In this document: in pieces, positions 17,157 to 35,612 of the stretch
Numbering within the stretch: the first letter of the stretch is position 1
How the letters are laid out: every line of letters begins with the position of its first letter
Assembly: GCF_963666255.1 (NCBI RefSeq)
Contig: NZ_OY762656.1
Coordinates: forward strand, 1,364,001 to 1,428,000
DNA: 64,000 nucleotides
Direction: 5' to 3'
Source: an uncultured Propionivibrio sp.
Lineage (GTDB): Bacteria; Pseudomonadota; Gammaproteobacteria; Burkholderiales; Rhodocyclaceae
Position numbers and translations under genes: made by a program
The notes under the pieces: generated by a model
What the model saw: only the letters and a program-made list of their open reading frames with translations
What the model was told of the DNA's origin: nothing
Databases searched by the model: none

Positions 17157-17183
17157 ATGATCGATTATCAAAGGAGATTTGAA

Positions 17184-17993: not shown

Positions 17994-18088
17994 AATACCG
18001 GAGCAGATTAACCCAACGGACCAGCGGTGAATCAATCATAAGTGGAAGCGTAAATGTCCCACAACGTCATAACGGAAGGGAAGGCAAG

Positions 18089-18688
18089 ATGAACCGGCTC
18101 ATTGATACCTATTTTCGAGCGCTTAAGTTCTTGGTCGTTTTTATGATCAGTGCCATGGTCGCACTGATATTCGGTAACGTTGTCTTGCGCTACGGCTTCA
18201 ATTCCGGCATTTCCGTGTCGGAGGAATTGTCGCGGTGGGCATTCGTGTGGTTGACCTACACCGGCGCCATTATCGCAATACGCGAAAACACCCACCTTGG
18301 CATGGACACACTTATCTCTAGGCTTCCAATGTCGGGGAAACGATTCTGCTACGTCTTAAGCCACCTTCTGATGTTGTTTTGCGTAGCACTATTTGGCATC
18401 GGTAGCTGGAAGCAGGCAGCGATTAATTTGCATGCAGAGGCATCAGCATCTGGACTTTCCATTGGCCTTTTCTTCTACGGTGCTGGTGTGTTTTTCAGCC
18501 TGCCCGCAATGCTGATTTTGCTCAAGAATCTGTGGCTGGTCCTCTCTGGCGGGCTGAATGACTCAGACCTTATCTGCATCAAGGAATCCGAAGAAGATCT
18601 TGATGAAAACGCCATTGCCGAGTTGCAGCAGGAAATGGAACGTGAAACGGTTCGGCTCTCTACCGAAGATAAAGCAAAGAAGGACTAA
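18089..18688 (+). CDS. TRAP transporter small permease (DctQ family)
   Basis: This 199-residue inner-membrane protein has four hydrophobic helices and the DctQ signature region with SEELSRWAFVWLTYTGA. It pairs with the large subunit that follows after four bases. The C-terminal tail after residue 160 is acidic and unusually long for DctQ. ATG 18089 has GGGAAGG upstream. With the large subunit and the binding protein at 12761 it makes a complete sodium-driven TRAP importer. Confidence 0.92.
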   Translation: MNRLIDTYFRALKFLVVFMISAMVALIFGNVVLRYGFNSGISVSEELSRWAFVWLTYTGAIIAIRENTHLGMDTLISRLPMSGKRFCYVLSHLLMLFCVALFGIGSWKQAAINLHAEASASGLSIGLFFYGAGVFFSLPAMLILLKNLWLVLSGGLNDSDLICIKESEEDLDENAIAELQQEMERETVRLSTEDKAKKD

Positions 18689-18692
18689 CATC

Positions 18693-20277: not shown

Positions 20278-22113
20278 ATGAGTCAAACAGTATCAATCAA
20301 TGCACCATCGTATGTCGCCCATGAAGGCCTGAAGCAATGGGTCGCCGAAATCGCCGCACTGACCACGCCGGAGCGTGTCGTGTGGGCCGATGGCTCCCAG
20401 GAAGAATATGACCGTCTGTGTCAGGAACTGGTCGATGCCGGCACGTTCGTCAAGCTGAAGAAGCGCAAGAATTCCTACCTCGCATTTTCCGATCCCTCCG
20501 ACGTCGCCCGCGTCGAAGACCGCACCTACATCTGTTCCGAAAAGCAGGAAGACGCCGGCCCCACCAATAACTGGGAAGCCCCGGCCAAGATGCGCGACAC
20601 CCTGAACGGCCTGTTCAAGGGTTGCATGAAGGGCCGGACGATGTACGTCATCCCCTTCTCGATGGGCCCACTCGGTTCGCCGATCGCACAAATCGGTATC
20701 GAAATCACCGACTCGGCCTATGTCGTCGTCAATATGCGCATCATGACGCGCATGGGCAAGGATGTTTTCCCGATCCTCGGCAAGGATGGCACCTATGTTC
20801 CCTGCGTGCACTCGATCGGCGCGCCGAAAGAGCCGGGCACCAAGGACCCGAAGTGGCCGTGCAACCCGACCACCAAGTACATCGTCCACTATCCGGAAAC
20901 GCGCGAAATCTGGTCCTACGGCTCGGGTTACGGCGGCAACGCGCTGCTCGGCAAGAAGTGCCTGGCATTGCGCATCGCCTCGAGCATGGCGCGCGATGGC
21001 GGCTGGCTGGCCGAGCACATGCTGATCCTCGGCGTCGAGGCACCGACCGGTGAAAAGCACTATGTCTGCGCCGCCTTCCCGTCAGCCTGCGGCAAAACCA
21101 ACTTCGCCATGCTGGTCCCGCCGGCCGGGCTGAAGGGCTGGAAGATCACGACGATCGGCGACGACATCGCCTGGATCAAGCCGCGCAAGGACAAGGACGG
21201 CGTCACCCGCCTCTACGCGATCAATCCGGAAGCCGGTTTCTTCGGCGTGGCTCCGGGCACGAACGAGAAGACCAACTTCAATGCGATGGCCTCGCTGGCC
21301 GAAAACACCATCTTCACCAACGTCGCGCTGACCGACGACGGCGACGTCTGGTGGGAAGGCATGGGCCCGGCGCCCGCCCACGCGATCGACTGGCAGGGTA
21401 ACGACTGGACGCCGGAAATCGCCAAGGAAAAGGGCACCAAGGCTGCGCATCCGAACTCGCGCTTCACATCCCCCGCCTCGCAATGCCCGTGCATCGACAA
21501 GGACTGGTCGAACGGCGACGGCGTGCCGATTTCGGCTTTCCTGTTCGGCGGCCGCCGCGCCTCGACGGTGCCGCTGGTCTGCCAGGCCACCGACTGGGAA
21601 CACGGTGTCTACACCGCTGCCACGCTCGGCTCGGAAACGACGGCTGCTGCATTCGGCGCGCAAGGCGTCGTGCGTCGCGATCCGTTCGCCATGCTGCCGT
21701 TCTGCGGCTACCACATGGCCGACTACTACAACCACTGGCTGAAGATGGGCTCGGCAGCAACCAAGCAAGTGCCGATCTTCATGGTCAACTGGTTCCGCAC
21801 CGACGAGAAGGGCGGCTTCGCCTGGCCTGGCTTTGGTGATAACGCCCGCGTGCTGAAGTGGATCATCGACCGTTGCGAAGGCCGCGTCGGCGGCGTCGAC
21901 ACCGCGATCGGCATCATGCCGAAGTACGACGATATCGACTGGACTGGTGCCGATTTCAGCAAGGGACAGTTCGACAACGTCACCAAGCTCGACAAGGACG
22001 TCTGGCTTGGCGAACTCGCCGGCGTCAAGGAGTGGTTCGAGAAGATGGGCAGCAAGCTGCCGTCCGAGCTCGCCGCCATCCGCGACGAACTCGAGGCCAA
22101 GTTCAAGGCCTGA
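20278..22113 (+). CDS. pckG: Phosphoenolpyruvate carboxykinase (GTP)
   Basis: This 611-residue enzyme is the GTP-dependent PEPCK, which makes PEP from oxaloacetate for gluconeogenesis in the cytosol. The P-loop [12 protein letters not shown] (about residues 267-278) contains the reactive cysteine typical of GTP-type enzymes, and [16 protein letters not shown] and the FLFGGRR segment are the usual substrate motifs. Base composition is core-like, unlike the island on its left. Growth on acids from the adjacent TRAP systems would require it. Confidence 0.97.
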
Positions 22114-22131
22114 TGCTCTGACGCTCGACAC

Positions 22132-22155
22132 CAAGGCCGCCCGCAGGCGGCCTTG
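22132..22155 (+). terminator. Hairpin after pckG
   Basis: CAAGGCCGCC and GGCGGCCTTG form a perfect 10-bp stem with a CGCA loop 18 bases after the pckG stop. The following bases (ATGTCTATTG) are only moderately U-rich, so termination may be partial. Confidence 0.65.
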
Positions 22156-22199
22156 ATGTCTATTGAATATGAATAATCGATATCCATAAGGAGAACATC

Positions 22200-23366
22200 T
22201 TGCGCATCGTTGTTGCACCGGATTCGTACAAGGGGAGCGTTTCTGCGCTCGACGTGGCCAACGCAATGGCGCGGGGCATCCAGAAGGTATTTCCTGATGC
22301 CGAGGTGTGCAAGGTGCCCATCGCCGACGGCGGCGAAGGAACGGTAGAGGCGCTGGTAACGGCGACCGCTGGTCAACTGAAAACCAGCGAGGTGACGGGG
22401 CCGCTGGGCAGCCGTCTTCCGGCCCAGTGGGGTGTGCTTGGCGATGGACGAACGGCCGTGATCGAAATGGCGGCCGCATCGGGGCTGCCGCTAGTGGCGC
22501 CGGAGATGCGGAATCCCCTAATTACCACGACGCTGGGCACGGGCGAACTGATCAGTGCCGCGCTCGATGCCGGGCTACGCCGGATCATCATCGGCATCGG
22601 TGGCAGTGCGACCAATGACGGTGGCGTCGGAATGGCGCGTGCCCTGGGGGCGCATTTTCTCGATGCTCAGGGGCAGGAACTGGCCGAGGGCGGAGCGGCA
22701 CTTGCCCAACTGGCGAAGATCGATCTGAGCGGATTCGATCCGCGACTGCAGGAAACCGATCTGATCGTCGCATGCGACGTTGACAATCCGCTGTGTGGTC
22801 CGTGCGGTGCCTCCGCCGTGTTCGGTCCACAAAAGGGCGCGACTCCGGCCTTGATTGCGCGACTCGATGCGGCGCTGGTGAACTTCGCCGAGTGCGCGCA
22901 GCAAGCCACCGGACGGGACGTGGCGAACGTGCCGGGCGCCGGCGCGGCGGGCGGCCTGGGCGCCGGTTTGATGTTCTTCACACCGGCAAAGTTGCGTCCA
23001 GGGGTTGAAATAGTGCTTGAAGCCGTTGGTTTTGCCGACATCGTCAAGAGCGCCGGCTTCGTCATCACCGGCGAAGGACGGACTGACTTTCAGACGGCCT
23101 ATGGTAAGGCGCCGGTCGGCGTGGCCAGGGTGGCGAAACAATTCGACGTGCCGGTGTTCTGCCTCTCTGGCGGCCTCGGCGATGGTGCCGACGATGTGCT
23201 GGTACAGGGCATCGACGCCGTGATGAGCATCTGCGATCGCCCGATGGCGCTGGAAGACTGCATGAATGCTGGCGCGTCCTTGATCGAAGCGGGCACGGTA
23301 CGGCTATGTCGGATCGCCAAGGTGTTCGACGGTTCGCGACATGCATATGCCACTCGTCACCGCTAG
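22200..23366 (+). CDS. glxK: Glycerate 2-kinase (GlxK/GarK family)
   Basis: The protein (388 residues) matches the GlxK/GarK glycerate kinase family: APDSYKGS at the start, PIADGGEGT, the IGIGGSATNDGG phosphate-binding loop and NVPGAGAAGGLG. It phosphorylates D-glycerate with ATP, in this family giving 2-phosphoglycerate. The start is TTG 22200, with AAGGAG eight bases upstream; no ATG fits. It would drain the D-glycerate made by the glxR homologue at 32958. The hairpin upstream separates it partly from pckG, and the next operon has its own sigma-54 promoter. Confidence 0.93.
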   Translation: MRIVVAPDSYKGSVSALDVANAMARGIQKVFPDAEVCKVPIADGGEGTVEALVTATAGQLKTSEVTGPLGSRLPAQWGVLGDGRTAVIEMAAASGLPLVAPEMRNPLITTTLGTGELISAALDAGLRRIIIGIGGSATNDGGVGMARALGAHFLDAQGQELAEGGAALAQLAKIDLSGFDPRLQETDLIVACDVDNPLCGPCGASAVFGPQKGATPALIARLDAALVNFAECAQQATGRDVANVPGAGAAGGLGAGLMFFTPAKLRPGVEIVLEAVGFADIVKSAGFVITGEGRTDFQTAYGKAPVGVARVAKQFDVPVFCLSGGLGDGADDVLVQGIDAVMSICDRPMALEDCMNAGASLIEAGTVRLCRIAKVFDGSRHAYATRHR

Positions 23367-23548
23367 CTGCGGCGTACTCCTAAATTTTTTTTGTGCAAAA
23401 CCCCAGCCTCTGAGAATAACAGCACTGAAATCGCGCTCCAATCTCCCCCCGTCAGCGAAATACACTTTTTGGCACCAAATCGAGAGTTGTGTTTCACTTT
23501 ATTCTTTTACGGAATTCATAGTCCCCTATATATCAACGTGTTACGCAC

Positions 23549-23563
23549 AGGCACATCCTTTGC
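23549..23563 (+). promoter_or_regulatory. Sigma-54 promoter of the second TRAP operon
   Basis: AGGCACATCCTTTGC matches TGGCACG-N4-TTGC at nine of eleven conserved positions, with GG and GC ten bases apart. It lies 93 bases before the TRAP binding-protein gene in an otherwise non-coding 289-bp gap. The sigma-54 activator encoded at 28001 is the natural partner. Confidence 0.7.
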
Positions 23564-23655
23564 TAGCTGGTCAGGCGACGATTTATTTCGTCCTTGGATG
23601 TGTTTCCCGGCGAGCGCCCAGGGTCGCTGCCATTTCACAGATAAAGGGGATAACG

Positions 23656-24654
23656 ATGCGTTCGAATTTGGTAAAAAAAATAGTAATCGGCGCAGTTTGG
23701 CTAGGATTGTCGGTAATGTCGGGGGCATCCTATTCGGCTGATGTCATCAAGATCAAGATCGCCTACGGTAACAACGTCGGAGAACCGAATGACAAGGCGC
23801 TGCGCGAATGGGGGCGCCTAATGAAGGAGCGTAGCAAGGGGCGGGTCGAGTTCCAGTTTTTCCCGAGTTCACAGCTCGGTTCCCAGAAAGACGTGACGGA
23901 GCAACTGACGATCGGTTCGAACGTAATCACCATCTCTGACGGTGGTTTTCTGATGGATTATGTTCCCGAGTTTGGCGTGACCTACCTGCCATACATCTAT
24001 GACAACAAGGAGCAGCTCTTCAAGCTGGTCGATAGTGACCTGTTCAAGGACATGTCAAAAAAGCTTGAGGAAAAAGGGCTCTTCATTGTTCATAGCAAAT
24101 GGATTTATGGCGTGCGCAACATGTTGGTGAGCAAGCCTGTCTCTAAGCCGGCAGACCTCGCCGGCTTGAAGATCCGCGTACCGAATATCCGGCTGGCGAA
24201 CGAAATGATGGGTGCCATGGGCGCCACGGCGACACCGATGCCGCTCGCCGAAGCCTATCCGGCGCTAATGCAGGGCGTGATCAATGGCGCCGAGAATCCA
24301 ATTCCAGTCCTGTATGGCGGAAAGATGTATGAAGGCGCGAAATACCTGATCATGACCCGCCATCAGGTCAATCTAACCCCGTGGATTGCCGGGACCAGCT
24401 TCATCAAGAAGCTGCCGCCGGAGATCGTCACCATGCTCAAGGAAACCGGGGAAGAGGCCGGTAAGTTCCTCGACAAGCAGAACGAAATTGCGGACCAGGA
24501 AGCGGTAGCCAAGATGCAGGCGAGTGGCGTCAAGGTCATCGAGCCGGATCGAGCCGCCTTCAAGACGGCGATGGCTGATTTCCCGAATCGCTTTAGTAAG
24601 GAGTTTCCGCCTGAAGTCATGAAGAAGGTCTACTCCATCATCGGCAGCAAGTAG
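23656..24654 (+). CDS. TRAP transporter substrate-binding protein (DctP family), second system
   Basis: This 332-residue protein has a signal peptide ending ASYSA|DVI and the DctP fold. The LAGLKIRVPNIRLANEMM segment contains the ligand-binding arginine, and MGATATPMPLAEAYPALMQGVINGAE is the typical family block (shown here in parts). It would bind a hydroxylated acid or polyol-derived acid in the periplasm. It shares only family-level similarity with the binding protein at 12761. ATG 23656 has AAAGGGG upstream. Its permease genes follow directly. Confidence 0.93.
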   Translation: MRSNLVKKIVIGAVWLGLSVMSGASYSADVIKIKIAYGNNVGEPNDKALREWGRLMKERSKGRVEFQFFPSSQLGSQKDVTEQLTIGSNVITISDGGFLMDYVPEFGVTYLPYIYDNKEQLFKLVDSDLFKDMSKKLEEKGLFIVHSKWIYGVRNMLVSKPVSKPADLAGLKIRVPNIRLANEMMGAMGATATPMPLAEAYPALMQGVINGAENPIPVLYGGKMYEGAKYLIMTRHQVNLTPWIAGTSFIKKLPPEIVTMLKETGEEAGKFLDKQNEIADQEAVAKMQASGVKVIEPDRAAFKTAMADFPNRFSKEFPPEVMKKVYSIIGSK

Positions 24655-24665
24655 TCCGGGCCTGT

Positions 24666-24704
24666 AGGGGCCGGTTAGCCTGGGTACGCGGTTACCGGCC
24701 TTCC
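24666..24704 (+). other. Hairpin between TRAP binding protein and permease genes
   Basis: GGCCGGT (24669-24675) and ACCGGCC (24694-24700) can pair across an 18-base loop, with flanking AGG and CCT adding stem. Such a structure after an abundant binding-protein message often stabilises it and reduces read-through to the permeases. Confidence 0.55.
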
Positions 24705-24792
24705 CCTCAATCTTTCTGCGCAGAACTTCGATTGGCCTCGCCGTATGGCAGCAGGCCAGGGGATCTTCACGCCGTTTTTCAGGAAATTACCC

Positions 24793-25311
24793 ATGCGGAC
24801 TTTGCGTCACTTGTATGAATTAATCAGGAAGCTGGACAACCTGCTTGGCATGACGGCGATGGCCTTCATCGTCCTGCTCGCCTGCGCCAATGTCTTTATG
24901 CGCTATGTCGTCGGCAAGCCCTGGGGGTGGGTCGAAGAGGTCACGGTATTCTGCTTCGTCTGGCTGACCATGCTCGGTGCCTCGGCGGTCATCCATCTCG
25001 AAGGCCATTGTTCGATCGACGTTCTGGTTTCGCGCCTGCAGTCTAAATGGCGCCGGGTCTTCAGCATTGTCGCCGACCTGATCGTCCTCAGCACGCTCGG
25101 CCTGCTGATCTGGTTCGGCATCCTGCTGACGATCAAGGGCAAGACAAAACTCACACCGATTCTTGGTATCCCTTACAGCTACTTCGATGCCGCCATCCCG
25201 GTGTGCTGTTCGTTCATGATGATTTATTACATTCGTATGTTCTGGAACAGCCTGCAGGGGAACAAGAACACGACCGCACTTGATGACGAAACCGAGGAGC
25301 TTCCGCGATGA
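24793..25311 (+). CDS. TRAP transporter small permease (DctQ family), second system
   Basis: This 172-residue protein has four membrane helices and the DctQ signature EEVTVFCFVWLTMLGASAV. I chose ATG 24793 (MRTLRHLYEL), preceded by AGGAAA, over an upstream in-frame ATG at 24745. Its stop overlaps the start of the large permease by four bases (ATGA), so the two are translationally coupled. Confidence 0.93.
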   Translation: MRTLRHLYELIRKLDNLLGMTAMAFIVLLACANVFMRYVVGKPWGWVEEVTVFCFVWLTMLGASAVIHLEGHCSIDVLVSRLQSKWRRVFSIVADLIVLSTLGLLIWFGILLTIKGKTKLTPILGIPYSYFDAAIPVCCSFMMIYYIRMFWNSLQGNKNTTALDDETEELPR

Positions 25312-26591
25312 TCGTATTACTTGCTTTTCTGGTGATGCTGGCACTGTTTGCGATCAACGTGCCTGTGGCCTTCGCCATCAGCGCCGCATCCTTCACCTAT
25401 TTCTTTGTCGCTCAGGATATGTCGGCGGTCATGGTCATCCAGCGCATGGTGGGTACGGCTGAGAACCTACCCTTGCTGGCGATCCCATTCTTCATGATGC
25501 TCGGGTCGGTGCTCAATTACACGGGCATTACGAATCGACTGCTGATCCTCTCGGATGCGCTGTCGGGGCATATGCGCGGTGGTCTGGCGCAAACCAATGT
25601 GGTACTCGGAGCCTTGATCGGCGGTCCCTCAGGGGCCGGTCTTGCGGACGCGGCGATGATTTGCCGCGTTCTGGTGCCGGAAATGGTTAGAAACGGCTAC
25701 GGACGGCCTTTTGCCGCTGCCCTGACGGCCGCCTCGGCGCTGCTCGGGCCGATCCTGCCGCCGGGCATCGGTCTCATCATTTACGGCTTCGTTTCGGATA
25801 CCTCGATCGGCAAGCTCTTTGTCGGCGGTCTCGGGCCGGGCATTCTGCTGACCCTGCTGTTGATGGTCGTCGTCGATATTCTCGCTCGTCGGCGTGGCTA
25901 CAAGCCGACACGCGAGCGCATGGCTAGCCTCGGTGAAATTGGTAAGGCTTCTTTCGGAGCCATCTGGGGGTTGATGCTGATGGTGCTGATCCTGGGTGGT
26001 ATCCGCTACGGAATCTTCACGCCGACCGAGGCCGGGGCAGTGACCTGTATTTACGCGCTGATCGTCGGCATCGCCTACCGCGAAACGACCTGGAAGGACG
26101 TCAAGGTGGCGCTCGCCGAATCGGCTCGGGCCAATGGCGCCATCATGCTGATCCTGATGTCCTCGGCCGGCTTTGCCTGGGTCCTGACCTGGGAGGGCGT
26201 GGCAGCCAATGTGACCGAGATGCTGATGGGGGTGACGACGAGTCCGGTCGTCTTCCTGCTGATCGTCAACGTCTTGCTCGTGATCGTCGGAATGTTTATC
26301 GACGGCAATGCAGCGATCATCGTTCTGACGCCGTTGTTCATGCCGACGGTGCATGCCATGGGGATTGATCCGATTCACTTCGGGATCATGATGATCTTCA
26401 ATCTGTCGATCGGCGCCATTACGCCGCCTTTCGGCACGACGATGCATCTCACCTGCAAGCTGACCGGCGTCAAGCTCGATCAGTTCCTCAAGGAGATCGT
26501 ACCCTTCTATGGCGCATTGTATCTGACGCTGCTTATCACCACGTTCTACCCGCCGCTCTCGCTGGTGCTGGCGAACTGGGTGCCAATGTGA
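25308..26591 (+). CDS. TRAP transporter large permease (DctM family), second system
   Basis: This 427-residue DctM protein has the expected series of membrane helices and hairpins with AIPFFMMLGSVLNYTGITNR, GGPSGAGLADAAM, and the ILPPGIGLIIYG and TPPFGTTMHL transport-site loops. It overlaps dctQ by 4 bp. The zinc alcohol dehydrogenase starts 50 bp downstream on the same strand, so uptake and the first oxidation are probably co-expressed. Confidence 0.95.
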   Translation: MIVLLAFLVMLALFAINVPVAFAISAASFTYFFVAQDMSAVMVIQRMVGTAENLPLLAIPFFMMLGSVLNYTGITNRLLILSDALSGHMRGGLAQTNVVLGALIGGPSGAGLADAAMICRVLVPEMVRNGYGRPFAAALTAASALLGPILPPGIGLIIYGFVSDTSIGKLFVGGLGPGILLTLLLMVVVDILARRRGYKPTRERMASLGEIGKASFGAIWGLMLMVLILGGIRYGIFTPTEAGAVTCIYALIVGIAYRETTWKDVKVALAESARANGAIMLILMSSAGFAWVLTWEGVAANVTEMLMGVTTSPVVFLLIVNVLLVIVGMFIDGNAAIIVLTPLFMPTVHAMGIDPIHFGIMMIFNLSIGAITPPFGTTMHLTCKLTGVKLDQFLKEIVPFYGALYLTLLITTFYPPLSLVLANWVPM

Positions 26592-26641
26592 TCCGCAAAC
26601 CAAGCGGATCAATGGCCGATATTTTTGAAGAGGAGATTGGA

Positions 26642-27706
26642 ATGGAGAAGATGATAGGGTTGGTGAAATCGGCTGCCGGGCAGGGCAACATGGACTTGCG
26701 TGTTCTGCCGGTTCCGGAGCCTGCTGCAAGACAAGTGCAAATCGAAGTGGTTGCCACCGGAATCTGCGGGTCCGACCTGCACATTTACCACTCGGACATC
26801 AATTTGGCAATGAACCTCCCGGTCGTGACTGGCCACGAGTTTTCAGGCGTGGTCACCAAGGTCGGGGAAGGCGTTTCCAAGGTCAACATTGGTGACCGGG
26901 TTTCGGGCATCACCTCGTTCGAGACCTGCGGCGAATGCATCAACTGCAAGACGGGAAAAACCAATATTTGCCAGCACAAGAAACTCATCGGTTACTGGTA
27001 CGACGGCGCCTTCGCCAACTATATTGTCATTCCCGAGGGCAATGTCCAGAAACTGCCGGACAACGTTTCCTTCTATGAAGGCGCAGTGTTGGAACCGTTG
27101 TGCTGCGCGATCGAGGCCGTCATCGAGCTGACCCGTGTCAAGCCGGAAGATATCGTGCTGGTCACGGGGCCTGGGTTGATCGGGCAGCTGACGGCGCAGT
27201 TGGCGCAGCTCTGCGGCGGCCGCGTCATCCTGGCAGGAACCAAGAACGACAAGGCGCGGCTGGCCAAGGCGGTCGAGCAGGGCATTCACTACACGATCGA
27301 TCTCGATGCCACCGATCTTGAAGAAGTCGTGATGACGATGACGCACGGTCAAGGAGCGGATATTGTCTTCGAATGTTCCGGCGCCGGGGCCGCGGCGAGA
27401 ACCGGCCTCAAACTGCTGAGAAAAGGCGGGCAATACACGCAAGTCGGCTTGTTTGGCAAACCGATCGAAATCGATTTCGAGCAGATCGCTTACAAGGAGG
27501 CCAAAGTGACCGGGTCGCTCGGGCAGAACTGGCAAAACTGGAATCTTGCCATCAAGCTGCTCGCGCACAAGCGTATCCACCTGCAGGCGCTTGTTTCTGA
27601 CATTTTGCCGCTCGATCGTTGGCAGGAAGGGTTCCAGAAATTCAAGGATGGTTCCGGTATGAAGATCCTGCTTGAGCCGGTGTCCTATGTGGAGCCGCAG
27701 CGCTGA
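26642..27706 (+). CDS. Zinc-dependent alcohol/polyol dehydrogenase
   Basis: This 354-residue medium-chain dehydrogenase has catalytic zinc ligands Cys42 (CGSD) and His65-Glu66 (GHE), and structural zinc cysteines 96, 99, 102 and 110. A Rossmann domain begins near the VTGPGLIGQLTAQLAQ segment. It is most like sorbitol, threonine or 2,3-butanediol dehydrogenases, so it should oxidise a secondary alcohol of a polyol or hydroxy acid with NAD. ATG 26642 follows GAGGAG. A truncated relative lies at 12554-12679. Confidence 0.9.
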   Translation: MEKMIGLVKSAAGQGNMDLRVLPVPEPAARQVQIEVVATGICGSDLHIYHSDINLAMNLPVVTGHEFSGVVTKVGEGVSKVNIGDRVSGITSFETCGECINCKTGKTNICQHKKLIGYWYDGAFANYIVIPEGNVQKLPDNVSFYEGAVLEPLCCAIEAVIELTRVKPEDIVLVTGPGLIGQLTAQLAQLCGGRVILAGTKNDKARLAKAVEQGIHYTIDLDATDLEEVVMTMTHGQGADIVFECSGAGAAARTGLKLLRKGGQYTQVGLFGKPIEIDFEQIAYKEAKVTGSLGQNWQNWNLAIKLLAHKRIHLQALVSDILPLDRWQEGFQKFKDGSGMKILLEPVSYVEPQR

Positions 27707-28000
27707 AATACGAGTTCTCCGGGGTGCCGCCTGCGTGTGGGCGTCCCGGATGTGTTTCTTCGCAGCATGCGGGCCGGCGAGGCGCCGGCATCGATCATGG
27801 CATTTGGCATCGCGTCATTCCGGTCCGGAAGCTTGCATCGTTGCGCATCAGGCGCCGCGGCTCATGGCAAGCGAATGACAAACGCCTGACTTCGGAAAGT
27901 CCTCGCGTATCGGCCGGAAATCCCGCCGGTTCTCAGGCAAAATCATGACAAACTGGATTCTGCGGTCTGTCATTGCTTACTTGCCAACGAAAGCGCGCTC
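27707..28000. other. Gap with repeated TGACAAAC-like words before the sigma-54 activator
   Basis: No gene is visible. The words AATGACAAAC (about 27876), CATGACAAAC (about 27946) and, inverted, GTCTGTCATTGC (about 27965) occur here. Related ATGACA/TGTCA words also occur just upstream of the sigma-54 promoter at 30129, so they may be binding sites of the activator. This is tentative. Confidence 0.35.
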
Positions 28001-29920
28001 ATGAAGGAAATCGTCGTCATAGCCCCGTACGCCGCGATGGTGGATGTTACGGCCCGCGTCATTGAAACCCACGGACATACCTCGGTGAGCCTCATCGAGG
28101 CCAATATGGACAACGCCGTTGCGAAAGCACACGAGGCGATCCAGCAAGGAGGTAAGGTCATCATTTCGCGGGGCGGCCTGTTTGACCTGATCAAAGCCAA
28201 CGTCCCGGTCCCGGTGGTCGGGGTCAAAGTCACCGCATTCGATCTCATCGAGAGCTTCAGCGCACTGCCGCCGGCCGATCTTGAGGAAACCATCGGCGTC
28301 ATCGGGTTCAAGAATGTCATTGCCGGGGCCGAAAAAATCGCGAAAGCGATGCGCCTCAGCATCTCGCATGTCGAATTGCGGCACAAGGACGAAATCGAAC
28401 TCGAAGTCCTCCGGCAGATCGGCAGCGGCATTCGGGTGTTTCTTGGCGATGGCGATGTCGGCTCGGTGGTCAAGCGAAATGACTGCACATTTTCCCTGGT
28501 GCATTCCGGTAGCGAGGCCGTGCAGGACGCCATCATCCAGGCGAAGGAAATCCTGAACGCGTTGAAGCAGCAGAAGGAAAAGGCGCAGCAATTTGCCACC
28601 ATCATCGATTTTGTCCATGACGGAATCATCGCTGTCGATGCCAGCGGGGTGATTACGGTCTTTAACAGCGCGTCCGAGAAGCTTACGCACTTCAGCAAAC
28701 AGGAAGCGATCGGAAGGAAGATCACCGAGGTCGTTCCCGAGGTCAGGTTGCTCAATGTGCTGGAAACCGTTCGTCCTGAGATCGGCGATATCCAGCAACT
28801 GGAAAACGACACAGTGGTCGCCACCAATCGGGTGCCCGTGATTGTCGATGGTGAGGTGCTCGGCGCCGTGGCGACGTATCAGGACATCACCGAGGTCCAG
28901 AAACTCGAACAGAAAATTCGCATCAAACTTTCGCAAAAGGGCTTCATGGCGCAGTACAGGCTGAGTGACATAATTCATGCTAGCAGCATCATGGCGACCT
29001 GTATCCGAACGGCTGAGAAATTTTCCCACTACGACACATCGGTGCTGATTACCGGGCCATCGGGCGCCGGCAAGGAGCTTTTCGCGCAGGGTATTCATAA
29101 CAACAGCAAAAGAAAGAATTCGCCCTTTGTCGCCATCAACTGCGCCGCCCTGCCCGAGACGCTGATCGAAAGCGAGCTCTTCGGCTATGTCGAAGGCTCC
29201 TTCACCGGGGCAACGAAGAAAGGCAAGCCAGGATTGTTCGAGATGGCGCATGGCGGAACGATTTTTCTCGACGAGATCAGCGAGTTGCCATTGCTCCTCC
29301 AGGGCCGTCTCCTGCGCGTCCTGCAGGAAAAGGAGGTCATGCGCATCGGTGACAACAAGATGATTCCGGTCGATGTCAGAATTATTTGTGCTTCGAATCG
29401 CAGCCTGATCAATCTCGTCAATCAGAAGCAGTTCCGCAGCGATCTCTATTTCCGCATCTCGACGCTGCGATTGAAGATTCCACCGCTGAGCCAGCGCGCC
29501 GACGACATCGAGTTGTTGAGCAGTTACTTCTTGAAGGTCTACAGCAGCAAGTACAAGAAGGGGGCGCTGGCGATCAGCAGCGAGGCGCTCTCTTACCTGA
29601 AAGCGTATGTCTTCAAGGGGAACGTGCGTGAACTCCAGGGAATGATCGAGCGCGCCGTGGTGATCTCCGAGTCGCCGACGATCGAGATAGATGATTTCGA
29701 CGCATCGAGCTATTCCGATGACTATGACATGATGGATGCGGATGATGGCGTTCATTTTCTACCCGAAGGCCATACCCTGAAAGACATCGAATCGGAATAT
29801 ATCGAATACGTCTATCGACGGGCGAACGGTTCCGTCAAGGATGCCAGCGAGATACTGGGTATAGGCCGCTCGACGCTGTGGCGGCACATCAAGGAAAAGA
29901 ATATTCGCCCTGTTTGGTGA
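28001..29920 (+). CDS. Sigma-54-dependent activator with PrpR-type N-terminus
   Basis: This 639-residue regulator has a PrpR-like N-terminal sensor (about 1-180), a PAS domain (about 195-310), a sigma-54 AAA+ domain (about 325-560) and a Fis-type helix-turn-helix at the C-terminus (ASEILGIGRSTLWRHIKEK). Walker A is GPSGAGKE (352-359). The sigma-54 contact loop reads GSFTGA rather than GAFTGA, a tolerated variant. PrpR-type domains bind small molecules directly. It lies between the TRAP-dehydrogenase operon and the transketolase operon, both preceded by sigma-54 promoters, so it probably activates both on sensing a pathway intermediate. Confidence 0.93.
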   Translation: MKEIVVIAPYAAMVDVTARVIETHGHTSVSLIEANMDNAVAKAHEAIQQGGKVIISRGGLFDLIKANVPVPVVGVKVTAFDLIESFSALPPADLEETIGVIGFKNVIAGAEKIAKAMRLSISHVELRHKDEIELEVLRQIGSGIRVFLGDGDVGSVVKRNDCTFSLVHSGSEAVQDAIIQAKEILNALKQQKEKAQQFATIIDFVHDGIIAVDASGVITVFNSASEKLTHFSKQEAIGRKITEVVPEVRLLNVLETVRPEIGDIQQLENDTVVATNRVPVIVDGEVLGAVATYQDITEVQKLEQKIRIKLSQKGFMAQYRLSDIIHASSIMATCIRTAEKFSHYDTSVLITGPSGAGKELFAQGIHNNSKRKNSPFVAINCAALPETLIESELFGYVEGSFTGATKKGKPGLFEMAHGGTIFLDEISELPLLLQGRLLRVLQEKEVMRIGDNKMIPVDVRIICASNRSLINLVNQKQFRSDLYFRISTLRLKIPPLSQRADDIELLSSYFLKVYSSKYKKGALAISSEALSYLKAYVFKGNVRELQGMIERAVVISESPTIEIDDFDASSYSDDYDMMDADDGVHFLPEGHTLKDIESEYIEYVYRRANGSVKDASEILGIGRSTLWRHIKEKNIRPVW

Positions 29921-29930
29921 GGCTCGACGT

Positions 29931-29962
29931 CGGCCGTTCCTCCGGAATTCCGGGGGCGGCCG
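29931..29962 (+). other. Strong hairpin after the activator gene
   Basis: CGGCCG (29931-29936) pairs with CGGCCG (29957-29962) around an inner palindrome CCGGAATTCCGG. There is no clean U-tract, but it lies 10 bp after the stop and may end transcription with Rho or act as a 3' stabiliser. Confidence 0.5.
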
Positions 29963-30128
29963 CTTCCCGGCTTTCTTCCGGTCCAATACATCGCTCGGTT
30001 TGAAGGGCGTATCGCCCGATCTTTCCACGAGATTTCTGTGTCATTTTGAAACGGCGTACGCGCTGGGCAGTCCCCATTAGCGTCAATTTGTCACGTCAAT
30101 ACAATGTGTTATTGATATGCAATGGGGC

Positions 30129-30143
30129 TGGTCCGGTTGTTGC
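30129..30143 (+). promoter_or_regulatory. Sigma-54 promoter of the transketolase operon
   Basis: TGGTCCGGTTGTTGC matches TGGCACG-N4-TTGC at nine of eleven positions with correct GG-N10-GC spacing. It lies 131 bp before the transketolase start within a 353-bp gap that holds no gene. TGTCA-type words upstream (near 30040-30090) could be activator sites. Confidence 0.7.
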
Positions 30144-30273
30144 TGATATGGCGTCGAAATCGACTCTCCGCGGCCGCAGGCCGGCTTCAGGCGTATTGGC
30201 GCGGCAGGGTGATTCTTCCGGGGCGCCGGATTTTTCGCGCGTCGATCGTCTACTGATTGAGAAGGAATGTTAG

Positions 30274-31107
30274 ATGGGCCTGAGCAAAGAAGACAAGGAA
30301 CAACTGGAGCAGCGGTGCGCGAAATTCCGTCGCGACCTGATCAAGCTCCTGTACGGCATCCAGACCGGGCACCCGGGCGGATCGCTGTCCTCGACAGAGA
30401 TCATGACAACGTTGTACTTCGACAAGCTGCGCGTCGACCCGAAGAATCCGAAGGATCCGGATCGCGACCGCTTCATCCTCGGCAAGGGCCACGCTGCGCC
30501 GATGCTGTACATGATTCTCGCCGCCCGCGGCTTTTTCCCGCAGGACGACCTCGTCACACTGCGCCAACTCGACAGCCACCTGCAAGGTCATCCCTGCGCG
30601 AAGAAGACCTGCGGCGTCGAGCTCTCGACCGGACCGCTCGGCCTCGGTCTGCCCGCTGGCCTTGGCATGGCCATGGCGGCGAGGCTCGACGGACGCGATT
30701 ACCGCACCGTCGTATTGATGGGCGATGGCGAACTGCAGGAAGGCATCGTCTGGGAAGCCGCGATGTCGGCATCCAAGTTCGCCGCCGACAACCTGCTGGT
30801 CATCGTCGATAACAACGGCGTGCAGCTCGACGGCACCGTCAGCGAGATCATGCCGATGGGCGACATCGGCGCCAAGTGGCGCTCGTTCGGCTGGAACGTC
30901 ATCGAGATCGATGGCCACTGCGTCGAAGCGATCGCCGACGCCGTCGACCTGGCGGCTACCGTCAAGGGCGTACCGACGGTGATCGTCGCCAGGACCGTCA
31001 AGGGCAAGGGCGTCTCCTTCATGGAAGGCAAGAGCGCCTGGCACGGCAAGCCGATCGGCAAGGATGAATATGTAAATGCGATGAAGGAACTGGGGGTGAC
31101 GGCATGA
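30274..31107 (+). CDS. Transketolase, N-terminal (TPP-binding) subunit
   Basis: This 277-residue protein corresponds to the N-terminal third of transketolase. It has the GHPGGSLSSTEI and LGKGHAAPMLY motifs and the thiamine-diphosphate signature GDGELQEG ending with NN (residues about 150-185). The catalytic remainder is in the next gene, which overlaps by four bases. Split transketolases of this kind occur in several catabolic clusters and often act on unusual ketoses. ATG 30274 follows AAGGAATG. It transfers a two-carbon ketol group between sugars in the cytosol. Confidence 0.93.
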   Translation: MGLSKEDKEQLEQRCAKFRRDLIKLLYGIQTGHPGGSLSSTEIMTTLYFDKLRVDPKNPKDPDRDRFILGKGHAAPMLYMILAARGFFPQDDLVTLRQLDSHLQGHPCAKKTCGVELSTGPLGLGLPAGLGMAMAARLDGRDYRTVVLMGDGELQEGIVWEAAMSASKFAADNLLVIVDNNGVQLDGTVSEIMPMGDIGAKWRSFGWNVIEIDGHCVEAIADAVDLAATVKGVPTVIVARTVKGKGVSFMEGKSAWHGKPIGKDEYVNAMKELGVTA

Positions 31108-32069
31108 GCGCAAGCATGACAATGGCAACAACCAAGAGAGCCATCCGCGACGTCTATGGCGAGACGCTCGCGCAACTCGGGCGCGAGAATCCAGACATCG
31201 TCGCGCTCGATGCCGACGTCGGCAGTTCGAGCAAGAGCATCATCTTCGGCAAGGAATTCCCGCAACGCTACTACAACGTCGGCGTCGCCGAAGCCAACAT
31301 GGTCGCCATGGCCGCTGGCCTCGCCACCGCCGGCAAGATTCCCTTCGCCAACACCTTCGCCGCCTTCATGGTCTTGCGCGCCGCCGACCCGGTACGCAGC
31401 CTGATCGCCTACACCGGCCTCAACGTCAAACTCGCCGGCACCTACGCCGGACTCTCCGACTCGTATGACGGCGCCAGTCACCACGCCATTGCCGACATCG
31501 CCTTCATGCGCGCGCTGCCGAACATGACGGTGGTCTCGGTCTCCGACCCGGTCGAGGCCGAACTCGCCACGCGCGCGGTCGCTGCCCACAAGGGCCCGGT
31601 CTATCTGCGTCTGAGCCGCGCCGAAGTGCCGGTGATCCTCGACAAGGCACGCTACAACTTCGAAATCGGCAAGGGCGTCACGCTCGTCGAAGGCGGCGAC
31701 CTGACCATCGTCGCCACCGGCTACATGCTGGTCAAGGCGCTCGAAGCCGCCGAGATTCTGGCCAAGCGCGGCATCAAGGCGCGTGTCGTCAATATCCACA
31801 CGATCAAGCCGATCGACGTCGGCTTGTTGCTCCAGTGCGCACGTGAGACCGGCGCCATTGTCACGGCAGAGGAGCACAACGTCTACGGCGGCCTCGGCAG
31901 CGCCGTCGCCGAGGTGCTGAGCCGGCAATGTCCGGTACCGATGGAATTCGTCGGCATCGAGGACACCTTTACCGAATCGGGCGATTACGAGAAGCTCCTG
32001 CTGAAATACGGGCTCTCTGCGTCTCGCATTGCTGCGCGCGCAGAAGTTGTCCTACAACGAAAAGCCTGA
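31104..32069 (+). CDS. Transketolase, C-terminal subunit
   Basis: This 321-residue protein carries the pyrimidine-binding and C-terminal domains of transketolase. The conserved glutamate that activates thiamine diphosphate is in NVGVAEANMVAMAAG, and KGPVYLRLSRAEVP and TAEEHNVYGGLGSAVAE are family blocks (given in part). It overlaps the N-terminal subunit gene by four bases, so the pair forms one heteromeric enzyme. The isomerase gene follows after 74 bp. Confidence 0.94.
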   Translation: MSASMTMATTKRAIRDVYGETLAQLGRENPDIVALDADVGSSSKSIIFGKEFPQRYYNVGVAEANMVAMAAGLATAGKIPFANTFAAFMVLRAADPVRSLIAYTGLNVKLAGTYAGLSDSYDGASHHAIADIAFMRALPNMTVVSVSDPVEAELATRAVAAHKGPVYLRLSRAEVPVILDKARYNFEIGKGVTLVEGGDLTIVATGYMLVKALEAAEILAKRGIKARVVNIHTIKPIDVGLLLQCARETGAIVTAEEHNVYGGLGSAVAEVLSRQCPVPMEFVGIEDTFTESGDYEKLLLKYGLSASRIAARAEVVLQRKA

Positions 32070-32143
32070 GACGACGGCACCAAAAAACAATTCGGCCAGT
32101 TGGGCCTCATTATTTTGCGAGTCACCCCTTCGCGGAGATACGA

Positions 32144-32923
32144 ATGCCAAAATTTGCAGCCAATTTGAGCATGCTGTTCAACGAAATTCCGTTCATGGAC
32201 CGTTTTGACGCCGCAGCGGCAGCCGGCTTCAAGGGCGTGGAATTCATGTTTCCCTACACTTTCGATGCAGAAAAAATTGCCGAAAAACTTTCGGCAAACA
32301 AGCTAGCGATGGTGTTACACAATCTACCCGCTGGCAACTGGGACGCCGGCGATAGAGGACTTGCCTGCGACCCGACTCGGATCGGCGAATTTCAGGACAG
32401 CGTTGGCACAGCCATCGCTGTTGCCAAGACACTCGGTGCGAAACAACTCAACTGCATGGCGGGGAAAACACCACTCGGCATTGACGCTGATACCGTTCGT
32501 GCAACGTTTGTCACCAATCTCAAATTCGCCGCAAGCCAGCTCAAGAACGAAGGCATCCGGTTAGTCACAGAACCGATCAATTACCGCGACATGCCTGGCT
32601 ATTACCTGAACTTTAGTCGCCAGGCGTTGGACATCATTCGCGAGACCGGTTCCGACAATCTATTCCTGCAGTATGACATCTACCATATGCAGCGCATGGA
32701 AGGCGAGCTCGCAGGTACGCTCCAGGCCAATTTGCCGATGATCAAACATCTGCAACTGGCCGACAATCCTGGGCGTTTGGAACCTGGAACAGGGGAAATT
32801 AACTACCGCCACCTGTTTCGCCTCATCGACGACGTTGGCTACGATGGATGGATTGGCTGCGAGTACAAACCGAAGACGACAACGCTGGAAGGACTCGGTT
32901 GGATCAAATCACACGGTTTTTAA
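32144..32923 (+). CDS. hyi: Hydroxypyruvate isomerase family protein
   Basis: This 259-residue TIM-barrel protein matches the Hyi family: MPKFAANLSMLFNE at the start, TEPINYRDMPGYYL with a metal-binding glutamate, LQYDIYHMQRMEG and GEINY. Hyi interconverts hydroxypyruvate and tartronate semialdehyde; the close relative OtnI isomerises 2-oxo-tetronates, so the substrate is uncertain. It is more AT-rich than its neighbours. ATG 32144 follows GCGGAGA. The downstream reductase could use its product directly. Confidence 0.9.
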   Translation: MPKFAANLSMLFNEIPFMDRFDAAAAAGFKGVEFMFPYTFDAEKIAEKLSANKLAMVLHNLPAGNWDAGDRGLACDPTRIGEFQDSVGTAIAVAKTLGAKQLNCMAGKTPLGIDADTVRATFVTNLKFAASQLKNEGIRLVTEPINYRDMPGYYLNFSRQALDIIRETGSDNLFLQYDIYHMQRMEGELAGTLQANLPMIKHLQLADNPGRLEPGTGEINYRHLFRLIDDVGYDGWIGCEYKPKTTTLEGLGWIKSHGF

Positions 32924-32957
32924 TCCGCGCACTTTTCATACAAGGATGGAAACAGAC

Positions 32958-33842
32958 ATGAAAACAATTGGATTTATCGGACTGGGCATCATGGGACGCC
33001 CGATGGCGAAGAACCTGATCAAGGCGGGCTACTCGCTCATCGTCTATGACAAGTTCGCCCCCACCGACGACCTCGTCGCGCTCGGCGCCACCGCCGCGCC
33101 GTCGAACAAGGCCGTCGCCGCTCAAAGCGACGTGATCATCACGATGCTGCCGAACTCGCCGCACGTCAAAGACGCCGTCATGGGCGCCGACGGCGTGCTC
33201 GACGGCGCCAAGCCCGGCACGATCCTCGTCGACATGAGTTCGATCGCCCCGGCGGCCTCGCAGGAAATCTGCGCAGCCTGCCAGGCCAAGGGCGTCGTCA
33301 TGATCGACGCGCCGGTCTCCGGCGGCGAACCGAAGGCGATCGACGGGACGCTGGCGATCATGGTCGGCGGCGACGCTGCCGCTTTTGAAACGGTCAAGCC
33401 GCTGCTCGACAAGATGGGCGCATCGGTCGTGCGCGTCGGCAACATCGGTGCCGGCAACGTCACCAAGCTTGCCAACCAGATCGTCGTCGCCCTCAACATT
33501 GCCGCAGTCTCCGAAGCCTTCGTGCTGGCGACCAAGGCCGGCGTCAATCCCGAAGCCGTCTTCAACGCCATCAAAGGTGGCCTCGCCGGCTCAACGGTGA
33601 TGAACGCCAAGGTGCCGATGATGCTCGACGGCAACTTCAAGCCCGGCTTCCGCATCGAATTGCACATCAAGGATCTGCAGAACGCCCTCGACACGGCCCA
33701 CGCGCTCAACGTCGCGACGCCGCTGACGGCCAACGTCATGGAAACGCTGCAAGCCCTCAAGTGCGACGACATGGGCGCCTGCGACCACAGCGCCATCGTC
33801 CGTTTCTACGAGAAGCTCGCTAAGGTCGAAGTACGAAAATAG
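32958..33842 (+). CDS. glxR: 2-hydroxy-3-oxopropionate (tartronate semialdehyde) reductase
   Basis: This 294-residue beta-hydroxyacid dehydrogenase has the GLGIMGRPMAKNL cofactor loop, the substrate loop DAPVSGGEPKA, and the catalytic lysine in GAGNVTKLANQ (about residue 170). It reduces tartronate semialdehyde to D-glycerate with NAD(P)H; relatives act on L-threonate, so assignment rests partly on the hyi gene in front and the glycerate kinase at 22200. ATG 32958 is preceded by AGGATGGA. A terminator follows. Confidence 0.92.
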   Translation: MKTIGFIGLGIMGRPMAKNLIKAGYSLIVYDKFAPTDDLVALGATAAPSNKAVAAQSDVIITMLPNSPHVKDAVMGADGVLDGAKPGTILVDMSSIAPAASQEICAACQAKGVVMIDAPVSGGEPKAIDGTLAIMVGGDAAAFETVKPLLDKMGASVVRVGNIGAGNVTKLANQIVVALNIAAVSEAFVLATKAGVNPEAVFNAIKGGLAGSTVMNAKVPMMLDGNFKPGFRIELHIKDLQNALDTAHALNVATPLTANVMETLQALKCDDMGACDHSAIVRFYEKLAKVEVRK

Positions 33843-34410: not shown

Positions 34411-35052
34411 TTACCACTGCAACAGCCGTCGGCCCACAGATGCGCCAAAAATCGCCGGAATCAGAATGCCCAGGGAATACCATAGCCCAATAAACGGCGC
34501 AGACGATTCAGGACAGTGAAGACAGTACACCAGCGCGGCCGTTGCTCCGGAGAGAAGACCGGCAGAGAAGCCAGCCTGACGAAGGTTTGTCGGAGCCAGC
34601 CCTTTCATTGCCCAGATGACAGCAACGAAGACGGGAATGGACAGCGTCGCAATCAGGAACGGGCAGACACTCCAGGTTTTTCCAAGCAGCAAATCCATGC
34701 GCTGATCAGCATCCGCTGTGATCAGCGCAAAAACCGCCAGACACCACATGACAAGAACGGGGAGTCCAATAAAGGCGGGTACGCTATTAACCCGCGCACC
34801 TGGCCGCGAAAAACGAATCGAGGCAAAGGCCCCGGCCAAAAGCAAAGCGCCGACGAATCCGAGTTTTATCCAGAACATCATCGATAGTGCCGCTTCCGCC
34901 AGATCGGCCCGCACCTGCAACAGCGACAGCATCATCATCCCGGCGCCGGCCATCCCGGCAGCAATCGCTTTGGCATAACGGCGCTCGGCCAAGTGCGGCT
35001 CCACTGCTTCAATGCCAGTTGCCAGCAGGCCGATCAACTCATCCGTTTTCAT
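34411..35052 (-). CDS. nrsF: NrsF-type anti-sigma factor (DUF1109)
   Basis: This 213-residue protein has about six membrane helices and belongs to the DUF1109/NrsF family of anti-sigma factors that hold SigF at the inner membrane. Short cytosolic N-terminal residues ([15 protein letters not shown]) precede the first helix. A conserved pair of cysteines (LVYCLHCPE) lies in the fifth periplasmic region and fits a redox or hypochlorite-sensing switch. It overlaps the sigF stop by four bases. Confidence 0.9.
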
Positions 35053-35612
35053 CTCTCACCTCTGATCTTTGCCGCCAGATACTTTAAACCGCGATGCACG
35101 CCAACCTTGATCGCCGATTCCGACATTCCGGTCAGTTTCGCGGTTTCTGTCACCGACAATCCTTCAAGTTTGACGTGAACGATCGGAAGCCGCTGTTTGT
35201 CGGGCAGTTCGTCGAGCAGCCTATTTAGGTCGCGATGCGCTTCTGCCGCATCCGCATCGGCGGACGCAAAGAACGCCGATTCTTCGTCCAGCGGCTCGGT
35301 CAGCAGGTCCTTGGCTGCGCGGCGGCGCAACAGATCAACGAGCTTATATCGGGCGATGGCCTGCACCCAAGACGATACGGGCTGTCCCGGATCGTAGGTA
35401 TGGCGCTGGTTATGCACCGCCAGAAGCGATTCCTGCACAAGATCCTCCACGTCGTCCGGCAAACTTGCAAGGCGCTTCCGCAGGAAACTCCGCAGGTGAG
35501 CGCTCAACTCCTTCAGAAACGACCGATAGGCGACGGCATCGCCGGAAAGCCCGCCGAGCAGCAGACTCCTGAGACGTTGCTCCTTCGCCAATAAACCGTC
35601 TTTACCATTCAT
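35049..35612 (-). CDS. sigF: ECF sigma factor SigF
   Basis: This 187-residue ECF sigma factor has region 2 (about 25-95; [43 protein letters not shown] in parts) and region 4 with helix-turn-helix [23 protein letters not shown] (in parts). Pairing with nrsF identifies it as the SigF group, which in Azospira responds to reactive chlorine species. The ATG at 35612 overlaps a perfect SigF-type -10 element, so if that promoter is used the true start may be downstream or the gene is read from a second promoter. Confidence 0.9.

Follow-up and report, generated by a model that had tools for sequence, protein, structure and literature searches.

What feeds a gene cluster that joins a TRAP transporter, a zinc dehydrogenase and a split transketolase to enzymes predicted to act on tartronate semialdehyde? 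The question is raised by cluster A, a run of genes all on the + strand within a 64,000-nucleotide window (contig NZ_OY762656.1, positions 1,364,001 to 1,428,000) of a 3.99 Mb genome (98.33% complete) from the genus Propionivibrio. Genes were called by Pfam and NCBIfam profile searches of the window proteins. These verified each gene named in a preliminary description of the stretch: glycerate kinase, DctP, DctQ, DctM, zinc dehydrogenase, the N-terminal (TKa) and C-terminal (TKb) transketolase halves, Hyi and GlxR. A sigma-54 activator with a PrpR_N domain, unmentioned in the title of that description, also lies in the cluster. We consider it slightly better than an even bet that cluster A encodes a redox-balanced pathway for the catabolism of a five-carbon aldonate via transketolase and tartronate semialdehyde.

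In the proposed route, a pentonate would be taken up by the TRAP transporter and oxidised at its penultimate carbon by the zinc dehydrogenase, giving a 4-keto-pentonate (HOCH2-CO-CHOH-CHOH-COO-). The split transketolase would then move HOCH2-CO- to glyceraldehyde-3-phosphate, yielding tartronate semialdehyde and xylulose-5-phosphate, the latter to be recycled by ordinary transketolase and transaldolase. Hyi would set the C2 configuration right by interconverting tartronate semialdehyde and hydroxypyruvate, GlxR would reduce the aldehyde to D-glycerate, spending the NADH of the dehydrogenase step, and glycerate kinase would form 2-phosphoglycerate. The parts, their recurrence, an altered active site, the kinship of the TRAP transporter and the lack of a carboligase above cut-off are read directly from sequence, and from these we infer all substrates and reactions.

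Proposed source of tartronate semialdehyde

In cluster A and in a second cluster of the same genome, cluster B, no enzyme other than the transketolase was seen that would cut a carbon-carbon bond. The earlier proposal of ketol transfer as the likely cut is supported. Transketolase cleavage of HOCH2-CO-CHOH-CHOH-COO- leaves OHC-CHOH-COO-, which is tartronate semialdehyde, and so points to a 4-keto-pentonate. Of the C3 (or C4) piece envisaged earlier, the C3 version is kept, best explained as tartronate semialdehyde from this ketone, and its conversion to glycerate by Hyi and GlxR, and onward to 2-phosphoglycerate, is supported by the sequence. GlxR passes two tartronate semialdehyde reductase models, one at 480 bits against a cut-off of 397 and the other at 408 bits against 341.

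The question of the tartronate SEMIALDEHYDE source extends to the whole genome, where four reductases exceed the TIGR01505 cut-off. One stands beside the single GarL (G000:C2:921094), which lies about 440 kb before the window and has no counterpart in cluster A; the other three are in split-transketolase clusters, namely A, B and a third designated L012. In L012 the reductase directly adjoins TKb; in A the two are separated by Hyi, and in B by the TRAP genes and zinc dehydrogenase. A fifth reductase (L156) reaches 330.6 bits against a cut-off of 340.75 and lies between a TctC receptor and a GFO/IDH/MocA oxidoreductase. A search limited to the TIGR00045 family found two glycerate kinases in the genome, in A and B. 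No glyoxylate carboligase scored above cut-off in this 98.33% complete genome; six weaker thiamine diphosphate (ThDP) enzymes match the carboligase model below cut-off, at up to 326 of 711 bits, and one of 14 search controls exceeded the cut-off. Because the genome has no carboligase above cut-off, the transketolase route was retained over a carboligase source.

Recurrence of the gene set

Cluster B (L009) lies on the opposite strand, about 58 kb from cluster A as measured between TKa positions, in the order regulator, Hyi, GlxR, DctP, DctQ, DctM, zinc dehydrogenase, TKa, TKb, glycerate kinase. The same run is present in Propionivibrio genome G005 (L112, with DctQ assigned by position only) and in a metagenome-assembled genome (MAG; L033). 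Since this ten-gene set recurs as one run in L009, L112 and L033, the grouping of the cluster A genes goes beyond chance, and the earlier view of cluster A as one catabolic unit is supported. A related run in L035 has no Hyi match, and its stretch ends inside TKa. The regulator of A is 61-64% identical to the regulators of L009, L112, L033, L034 and L035. TKb proteins of the A/B kind occur at E <=1e-120 in 5 of the 28 genomes of the genus, and genome G011 has a TKa at 73% identity on a contig that ends inside TKb.

The transketolase halves of A and B share 98.3% of bases over 1688 bp and 96-97% of amino acids, and this near-identity (30328-32015) drops at the borders of the TKab coding region. 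Identities of the other proteins are 80% for GlxR, 74% for the kinase, 52% for Hyi, 37% for DctM, 33% for the zinc dehydrogenase and 31% for DctP, whose cluster B copy lies at L009:11372-12442. GlxR of A is in turn 99% base-identical to GlxR of L012 (32966-33841), over the gene only; L012 also encodes TRAP components, a GntR regulator, another split transketolase and a short-chain dehydrogenase/reductase (SDR) dehydrogenase. These likenesses would fit gene conversion or recent copying from one parallel pathway to another. Cluster A appears to be an additional entry point to the pathway of cluster B, assembled partly from copies and provided with its own uptake and first oxidation.

Two more split transketolases are found in the same genome. 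L010 combines one with an acetolactate-synthase-like ThDP enzyme, an AroE-like protein, a TIM barrel, an Asp/Glu racemase, a LysR regulator and DctM; L011 combines one with an SDR protein, TRAP components and a DhaK-like Dak1 protein. L010, L011 and L012 are probably further ketol-transfer routes for other acids. An additional Hyi-like frame (47%) at G000:C3:410687-411562 is broken by two TGA codons and is possibly a pseudogene. The phosphoenolpyruvate carboxykinase next door, earlier regarded as fitting gluconeogenic growth, is a real gene (20278), but no copy of it was matched in any of 18 related stretches and it was ruled out as a pathway member.

Phosphate site of the split transketolase

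TKa and TKb are separate chains, the former carrying the N-terminal ThDP-binding part and the latter the pyrimidine and C-terminal parts, and in the PDB they best match the respective chains of the split transketolase from Carboxydothermus (6yak, 6yaj). The catalytic-site residues, including the His positions of TKa, are kept in alignments, and we take these and the other kept positions to have the catalytic roles of their transketolase counterparts.

The phosphate-orienting motif is described as RSFHR in classical transketolases and RAFDR in the sulfofructose transketolase SqwGH (PMC11659671). TKb of cluster A matches neither; its motif is RSFYR (R15, S42, F88, Y114, R172), with four of the five classical residues kept and His replaced by Tyr. 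Among 103 TKb rows, which include duplicates of single loci, the motif was RSFHR in 55, RSFYR in 30, RAFHR in seven, RSFSR in five and another in six; the L012 transketolase has Ser at the His/Tyr position. In a midpoint-rooted FastTree phylogeny of 91 TKb tips, the 25 with RSFYR group together in a single clade (support 0.996), with Tyr in every one.

Retention of the R, S, F and R residues is what would be expected if the pair does no more than supply phosphorylated sugars to the pentose phosphate pathway, a different acid being degraded by the other genes without it. The His-to-Tyr change in all 25 clade tips argues against activity only on phosphorylated pentoses. In addition, a full-length transketolase and a transaldolase are present elsewhere in the genome, the pair is kept within the same gene run in L009, L112 and L033, and without the pair no enzyme seen in the run makes a substrate for Hyi and GlxR. 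We regard the pentose phosphate explanation as quite unlikely.

An acid bearing a sulfonate, cleaved by a sulfo-transketolase variant, would also suit the TRAP uptake, the GlxR-like reductase and a split transketolase whose phosphate site is altered. The motif here is RSFYR, not RAFDR, GlxR falls below the sulfolactaldehyde reductase cut-off (197 bits against 348), and the glycerate kinase would lack a substrate, so that a sulfonate is highly improbable. A TKb with RAFDR, the motif of the sulfofructose transketolase, was observed in a split transketolase elsewhere in the genus (L020 of genome G016).

Transporter, dehydrogenase and identity of the acid

R174 of the cluster A DctP, placed by its KIRVP context, is kept in 7 of 7 aligned DctP proteins and is presumably the equivalent of SiaP Arg-147, a match made on sequence context. 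Arg-147 is reported to bind carboxylate and to have an equivalent in 98% of DctP proteins (PMC4646407). Because DctP retains this carboxylate-binding Arg, the substrate is most likely an acid; of the "polyol or sugar acid" of the preliminary description the acid stands, and a polyol was judged unlikely. The AlphaFold model of DctP has a mean predicted local distance difference test score (pLDDT) of 76.5. The best PDB relatives are 4o8m and 4ovt, whose presumed ligands, L-galactonate and L-fuconate, are not used as evidence.

The nearest models to the zinc dehydrogenase are threonine dehydrogenase and IolM, yet it lies below every NCBIfam cut-off. Dehydrogenases that accompany the transketolase pair in L039 and L036 are 50-51% identical to it. 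At strict cut-offs, A-type TRAP and A-type zinc dehydrogenase each occur in 1 of 274 genomes of the class, the window's own. Within the genus the dehydrogenase is found in 5 of 28 genomes when matches down to 43% are counted; three of the 28 have it at no less than 76%, again including the window's own.

In an alternative reading, an imported L-galactonate, D-altronate or other hexonate would be oxidised by the dehydrogenase to D-tagaturonate or a similar 5-keto acid. The transketolase would then free a C4 semialdehyde acid, Hyi/OtnI would convert this to a 3-keto-tetronate, and a second cut would give glyoxylate, comparable to SqwI/SqwGH; such two-round logic is described for sulfoquinovose (PMC11659671). 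The TRAP proteins of cluster A are 78-85% identical to those of L136 (G000:C2:1714500-1734400), which encodes a sigma-54 regulator, TRAP components, a zinc dehydrogenase, a tagaturonate reductase (602.8 bits, cut-off 359), and a GarD/UxaA-family dehydratase and a 2-keto-3-deoxygluconate (KDG)-type kinase, both below NCBIfam cut-offs. From these genes L136 appears to be an L-galactonate-type operon. Two other genomes of the genus carry the A-type dehydrogenase in contexts where it may act on hexonates. In L152 (79%) it accompanies a second zinc dehydrogenase, an aldonate/GarD-UxaA-family dehydratase, a KDG-type kinase and a 2-keto-3-deoxy-6-phosphogluconate aldolase; in L153 (76%) it accompanies TRAP components (DctP 48% and DctM 52% to A), a TIM barrel and a DAK kinase. 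Both contexts fit a dehydrogenase making HOCH2-CO- ketols, not specifically from a C5 acid. Hyi passes the OtnI model (358.6 bits, cut-off 325) as well as the Hyi model (368.8 bits, cut-off 353), and in a relative (L117) a split transketolase is accompanied by a carboligase. Against a hexonate, the GlxR and glycerate kinase of A and B would have no clear role, given that the genome has no carboligase above cut-off, and it already holds, in L136, a dehydratase-type operon for such a substrate. The C4 configuration of tagaturonate is also non-standard for a transketolase donor. We regard a hexonate substrate as rather unlikely.

For the pentonate route, the usual transketolase donor configuration (3S,4R) places the C2 hydroxyl left and the C3 hydroxyl right in Fischer projection, which gives D-arabinonate or L-xylonate. 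By stereochemical reasoning these are C4 epimers that yield the same ketone on C4 oxidation. The same donor stereochemistry would leave the released semialdehyde L-configured, giving Hyi a role before D-glycerate. L-galactonate and D-altronate share their C2-C4 configuration with D-arabinonate (PMC6336799), and kinship with an L-galactonate-type TRAP therefore suits D-arabinonate for cluster A, leaving L-xylonate for cluster B. This assignment is suggested if the enzyme keeps the usual donor rule. L-xylonate and L-lyxonate are described as ascorbate breakdown products (PMC11066805).

Neighbours of related split transketolases

The best 80 of at least 563 relatives were kept, and 69 loci with a full TKb were comparable (22 RSFYR and 47 xxFHR); of the 11 omitted, nine lack a complete TKb within their stretch, L048 has the motif RALNR and the motif of L075 is incomplete. 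Neighbour families were built from clusters among the same loci, whose related sequences are not independent. A reductase of the GlxR or D-2-hydroxyacid dehydrogenase type is nearby in 17 of the 22 RSFYR loci as opposed to 5 of the 47 xxFHR loci; in both groups the D-2-hydroxyacid dehydrogenase, which passes no NCBIfam cut-off (one member tested), was counted as a reductase. Hyi or TIM barrel c2 is nearby in 16 of 22 against 3 of 47, glycerate kinase in 7 against 2, zinc dehydrogenase in 6 against 2, and an IolO-like epimerase in 13 against none.

Sixteen of the 17 reductases at RSFYR loci are of the D-2-hydroxyacid dehydrogenase type, GlxR itself being found only in L033. In Clostridia, a D-2-hydroxyacid dehydrogenase may take the place of GlxR, preceded by another TIM barrel, an arrangement that would fit conversion of tartronate semialdehyde to hydroxypyruvate and on to D-glycerate. 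In the clostridial MAG locus L045, an A-type dehydrogenase (45% to A) precedes one transketolase pair and a B-type dehydrogenase (47% to B) follows it, as expected if both enzymes give the same ketone from two epimers; a TIM barrel, a hydroxyacid dehydrogenase and a kinase lie past the dehydrogenases. We put it at a little under an even chance that the RSFYR clade of Propionivibrio and Clostridia is specialised for keto-aldonates. It would then be a source of tartronate semialdehyde besides carboligase and GarL, with C4-epimeric pentonates converging on one 4-keto-pentonate and no dehydratase step.

Several observations weigh against the pentonate route, beginning with the hexonate-type transporter, the dual Hyi score, the contexts of L152 and L153 and the four retained phosphate-site residues described above. 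No transketolase is found among the neighbours looked at of the fifth reductase (L156). L034, otherwise a related run, has neither Hyi nor GlxR in its stretch, reductase, isomerase and kinase are all absent from the stretches of L036 and L039, and many clostridial loci have other partners, including PdxA- and racemase-like genes. No -24/-12-like site was found in 22100-22215 before the glycerate kinase gene of A, which lies upstream of the dctP site. Propionivibrio loci taken by place (L113, L117 and others), which stand outside the 22-versus-47 counts, include further cases against a tight link. L113 of G018 has an RSFHR pair with a TIM barrel and a Rid protein ahead of a regulator that is 63% identical to that of A; after it, on the other strand, come a 2-hydroxyacid dehydrogenase, a reductase scoring 488.5 bits (cut-off 397) and a glycerate kinase scoring 496.8 bits (cut-off 168). 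In the L117 cluster of G005, which also holds a TIM barrel and a DapA-like protein, the RSFHR pair is placed between a glyoxylate carboligase (1134 bits against a cut-off of 711) and a reductase (422 bits against 341). RSFYR is therefore not needed for the association with a reductase. The carboligase may be the semialdehyde maker in L117, perhaps from glyoxylate freed by transketolase, which makes glyoxylate as a transketolase product a live rival. G005 also carries both this carboligase and cluster B (L112).

Glyoxylate is the product expected of a tetronate route, in which an LtnD-like GlxR or the zinc dehydrogenase would oxidise threonate or erythronate, an OtnI-like Hyi would shift the keto group to C3 if needed, and the transketolase would split 3-oxo-tetronate into glyoxylate and a C2 unit. 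LtnD and OtnI are known neighbours in tetronate routes. The OtnI score of Hyi agrees with this scheme, and glyoxylate as the transketolase product in L117 would fit the carboligase and reductase there. GlxR of A, however, reaches only 183.7 bits against the LtnD cut-off of 350 and passes both tartronate semialdehyde reductase models, and the glycerate kinase would have no role absent a carboligase, none being above cut-off in the genome. We give a tetronate substrate little credence.

Among the related loci, L040, L041, L047 and L050 combine an RSFYR transketolase with an IolO-like epimerase, an Asp/Glu racemase-like protein, a TctA-type transporter and a PdxA-like dehydrogenase, and L038, L043 and L044 have fewer of these partners; the L040-type loci would represent a related but richer route. 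The glycerate kinase spans two overlapping frames in two MAG loci (L034:11924-13103 and L045:14983-16123), which may reflect assembly error or decay. L117 also encodes a DctP fused to a methyl-accepting-protein-like part.

Comparison with known pathways

The glyoxylate carboligase route (Gcl-Hyi-GlxR-GlxK) shares with cluster A a Hyi, a tartronate semialdehyde reductase and a glycerate kinase. It differs in its carboligase, which transketolase would replace in the window genome, where no Gcl exceeds the cut-off (G005 has one, in L117). The glucarate/galactarate route (GarD/GudD-GarL-GarR-GarK) has the same GarR- and GarK-type last steps; cluster A has no GarL, and the GarL of the genome lies elsewhere with its own reductase. 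AptAB, the apulose-4-phosphate transketolase of apiose use, is likewise a split transketolase in a catabolic cluster. As had been pointed out, the companions of that pathway are missing: no apiose isomerase or apulose kinase family occurs among the annotated window genes.

The sulfo-transketolase pathway (SqwGH; Clostridium sp. MSTE9, Faecalicatena) is described as using a split transketolase with a changed phosphate-site motif to move C2 from an acidic non-phosphorylated ketose to glyceraldehyde-3-phosphate, with a leftover acid aldehyde that can be reduced (PMC11659671). In cluster A the head group would be a carboxylate, the motif is RSFYR instead of RAFDR, a dehydrogenase rather than an isomerase would make the ketose, and the product would not be excreted but passed on to glycerate. 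When 5-keto-D-gluconate is cleaved to tartaric semialdehyde (PMC11066805), transketolase likewise cuts a keto-aldonate next to its ketone, following the action of an aldonate 5-dehydrogenase. This cleavage is proposed for plants, with a mutant E. coli enzyme reported to be active; it concerns a C6 acid and involves no bacterial catabolic operon (PMC11066805). Searches of an open-licence library, judged from titles and abstract starts, turned up no transketolase route for pentonates; as evidence that none has been described, this is weak. The route is possibly new, its nearest known relatives being the sulfo-transketolase pathways and the 5-keto-gluconate cleavage discussed for tartrate synthesis.

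If correct, the route would explain a clade of catabolic split transketolases, provide a carboxylate counterpart to the sulfo-transketolase pathways and allow redox-neutral use of pentonates without dehydration. It would also offer a sink for L-xylonate derived from ascorbate, where it is described as a breakdown product (PMC11066805). RSFYR would be a sequence mark to try in annotation, and its bearers would be candidate natural enzymes for cutting keto-aldonates.

Feature coordinates, regulation and flanking genes

Several open reading frames (ORFs) start too early; the likeliest starts are those given for Hyi, DctP and, approximately, GlxR and the zinc dehydrogenase in Table 1. The ATG of TKb overlaps the stop of TKa.

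Table 1. Genes and putative promoter sites of cluster A, in window positions.
Feature	Position	Strand	Evidence
Glycerate kinase (GlxK/GarK family, TIGR00045)	22200..23366	+	497 bits, cut-off 168
Sigma-54-like -24/-12 site AGGCACATCCTTTGCT	23549..23564	+	10/12 consensus positions; upstream of dctP
DctP, TRAP solute-binding protein	23656..24654	+	Pfam; R174 in KIRVP; 83% to L136 DctP
DctQ, TRAP small permease	24745..25311	+	Pfam DctQ; 78% to L136 DctQ
DctM, TRAP large permease	25308..26591	+	Pfam DctM; 85% to L136 DctM
Zinc dehydrogenase, A-type (likely penultimate-carbon aldonate dehydrogenase)	26642..27706	+	ORF opens 26588; no NCBIfam cut-off passed
Sigma-54 activator (PrpR_N, PAS, AAA+ and Fis-type HTH domains)	28001..29920	+	Pfam
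Sigma-54-like -24/-12 site TGGTCCGGTTGTTGCT	30129..30144	+	10/12 consensus positions; upstream of TKa
Transketolase N-terminal half (TKa)	30274..31107	+	Pfam; 96% amino acid identity to cluster B
Transketolase C-terminal half (TKb), RSFYR phosphate-site motif	31104..32069	+	97% amino acid identity to cluster B
Hyi/OtnI, hydroxypyruvate isomerase-like TIM barrel	32144..32923	+	NCBIfam Hyi and OtnI models
GlxR/GarR, tartronate semialdehyde reductase	32958..33842	+	Two NCBIfam tartronate semialdehyde reductase models

The sigma-54 activator gene lies between the two operons of cluster A, each of which has an upstream -24/-12-like site, 107 nt before dctP and 145 nt before TKa. Similar sites precede Hyi in L009, L112 and L033 (10 positions each), DctP in L034 (9) and L136 (11), the zinc dehydrogenase in L036 (11) and a PdxA-like gene in L040 (10), several of these gene starts being uncertain. 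The number of sites is not above chance, with 35 of at least 9 matching positions in the window against 38 expected, and the argument from these sites therefore rests on their position.

Downstream of GlxR, on the - strand (34411-35612), are an ECF (extracytoplasmic function) sigma factor and an NrsF-like anti-sigma factor (154.7 bits, below the cut-off of 300). Upstream of cluster A, the region 11729-19973 encodes an FCD-GntR regulator and a DctP on the - strand, and a thiolase, a CoA-transferase, an SDR protein, DctQ and DctM (the last by similarity only) on the + strand; this is a separate TRAP cluster, perhaps with a hydroxy acid as its substrate.

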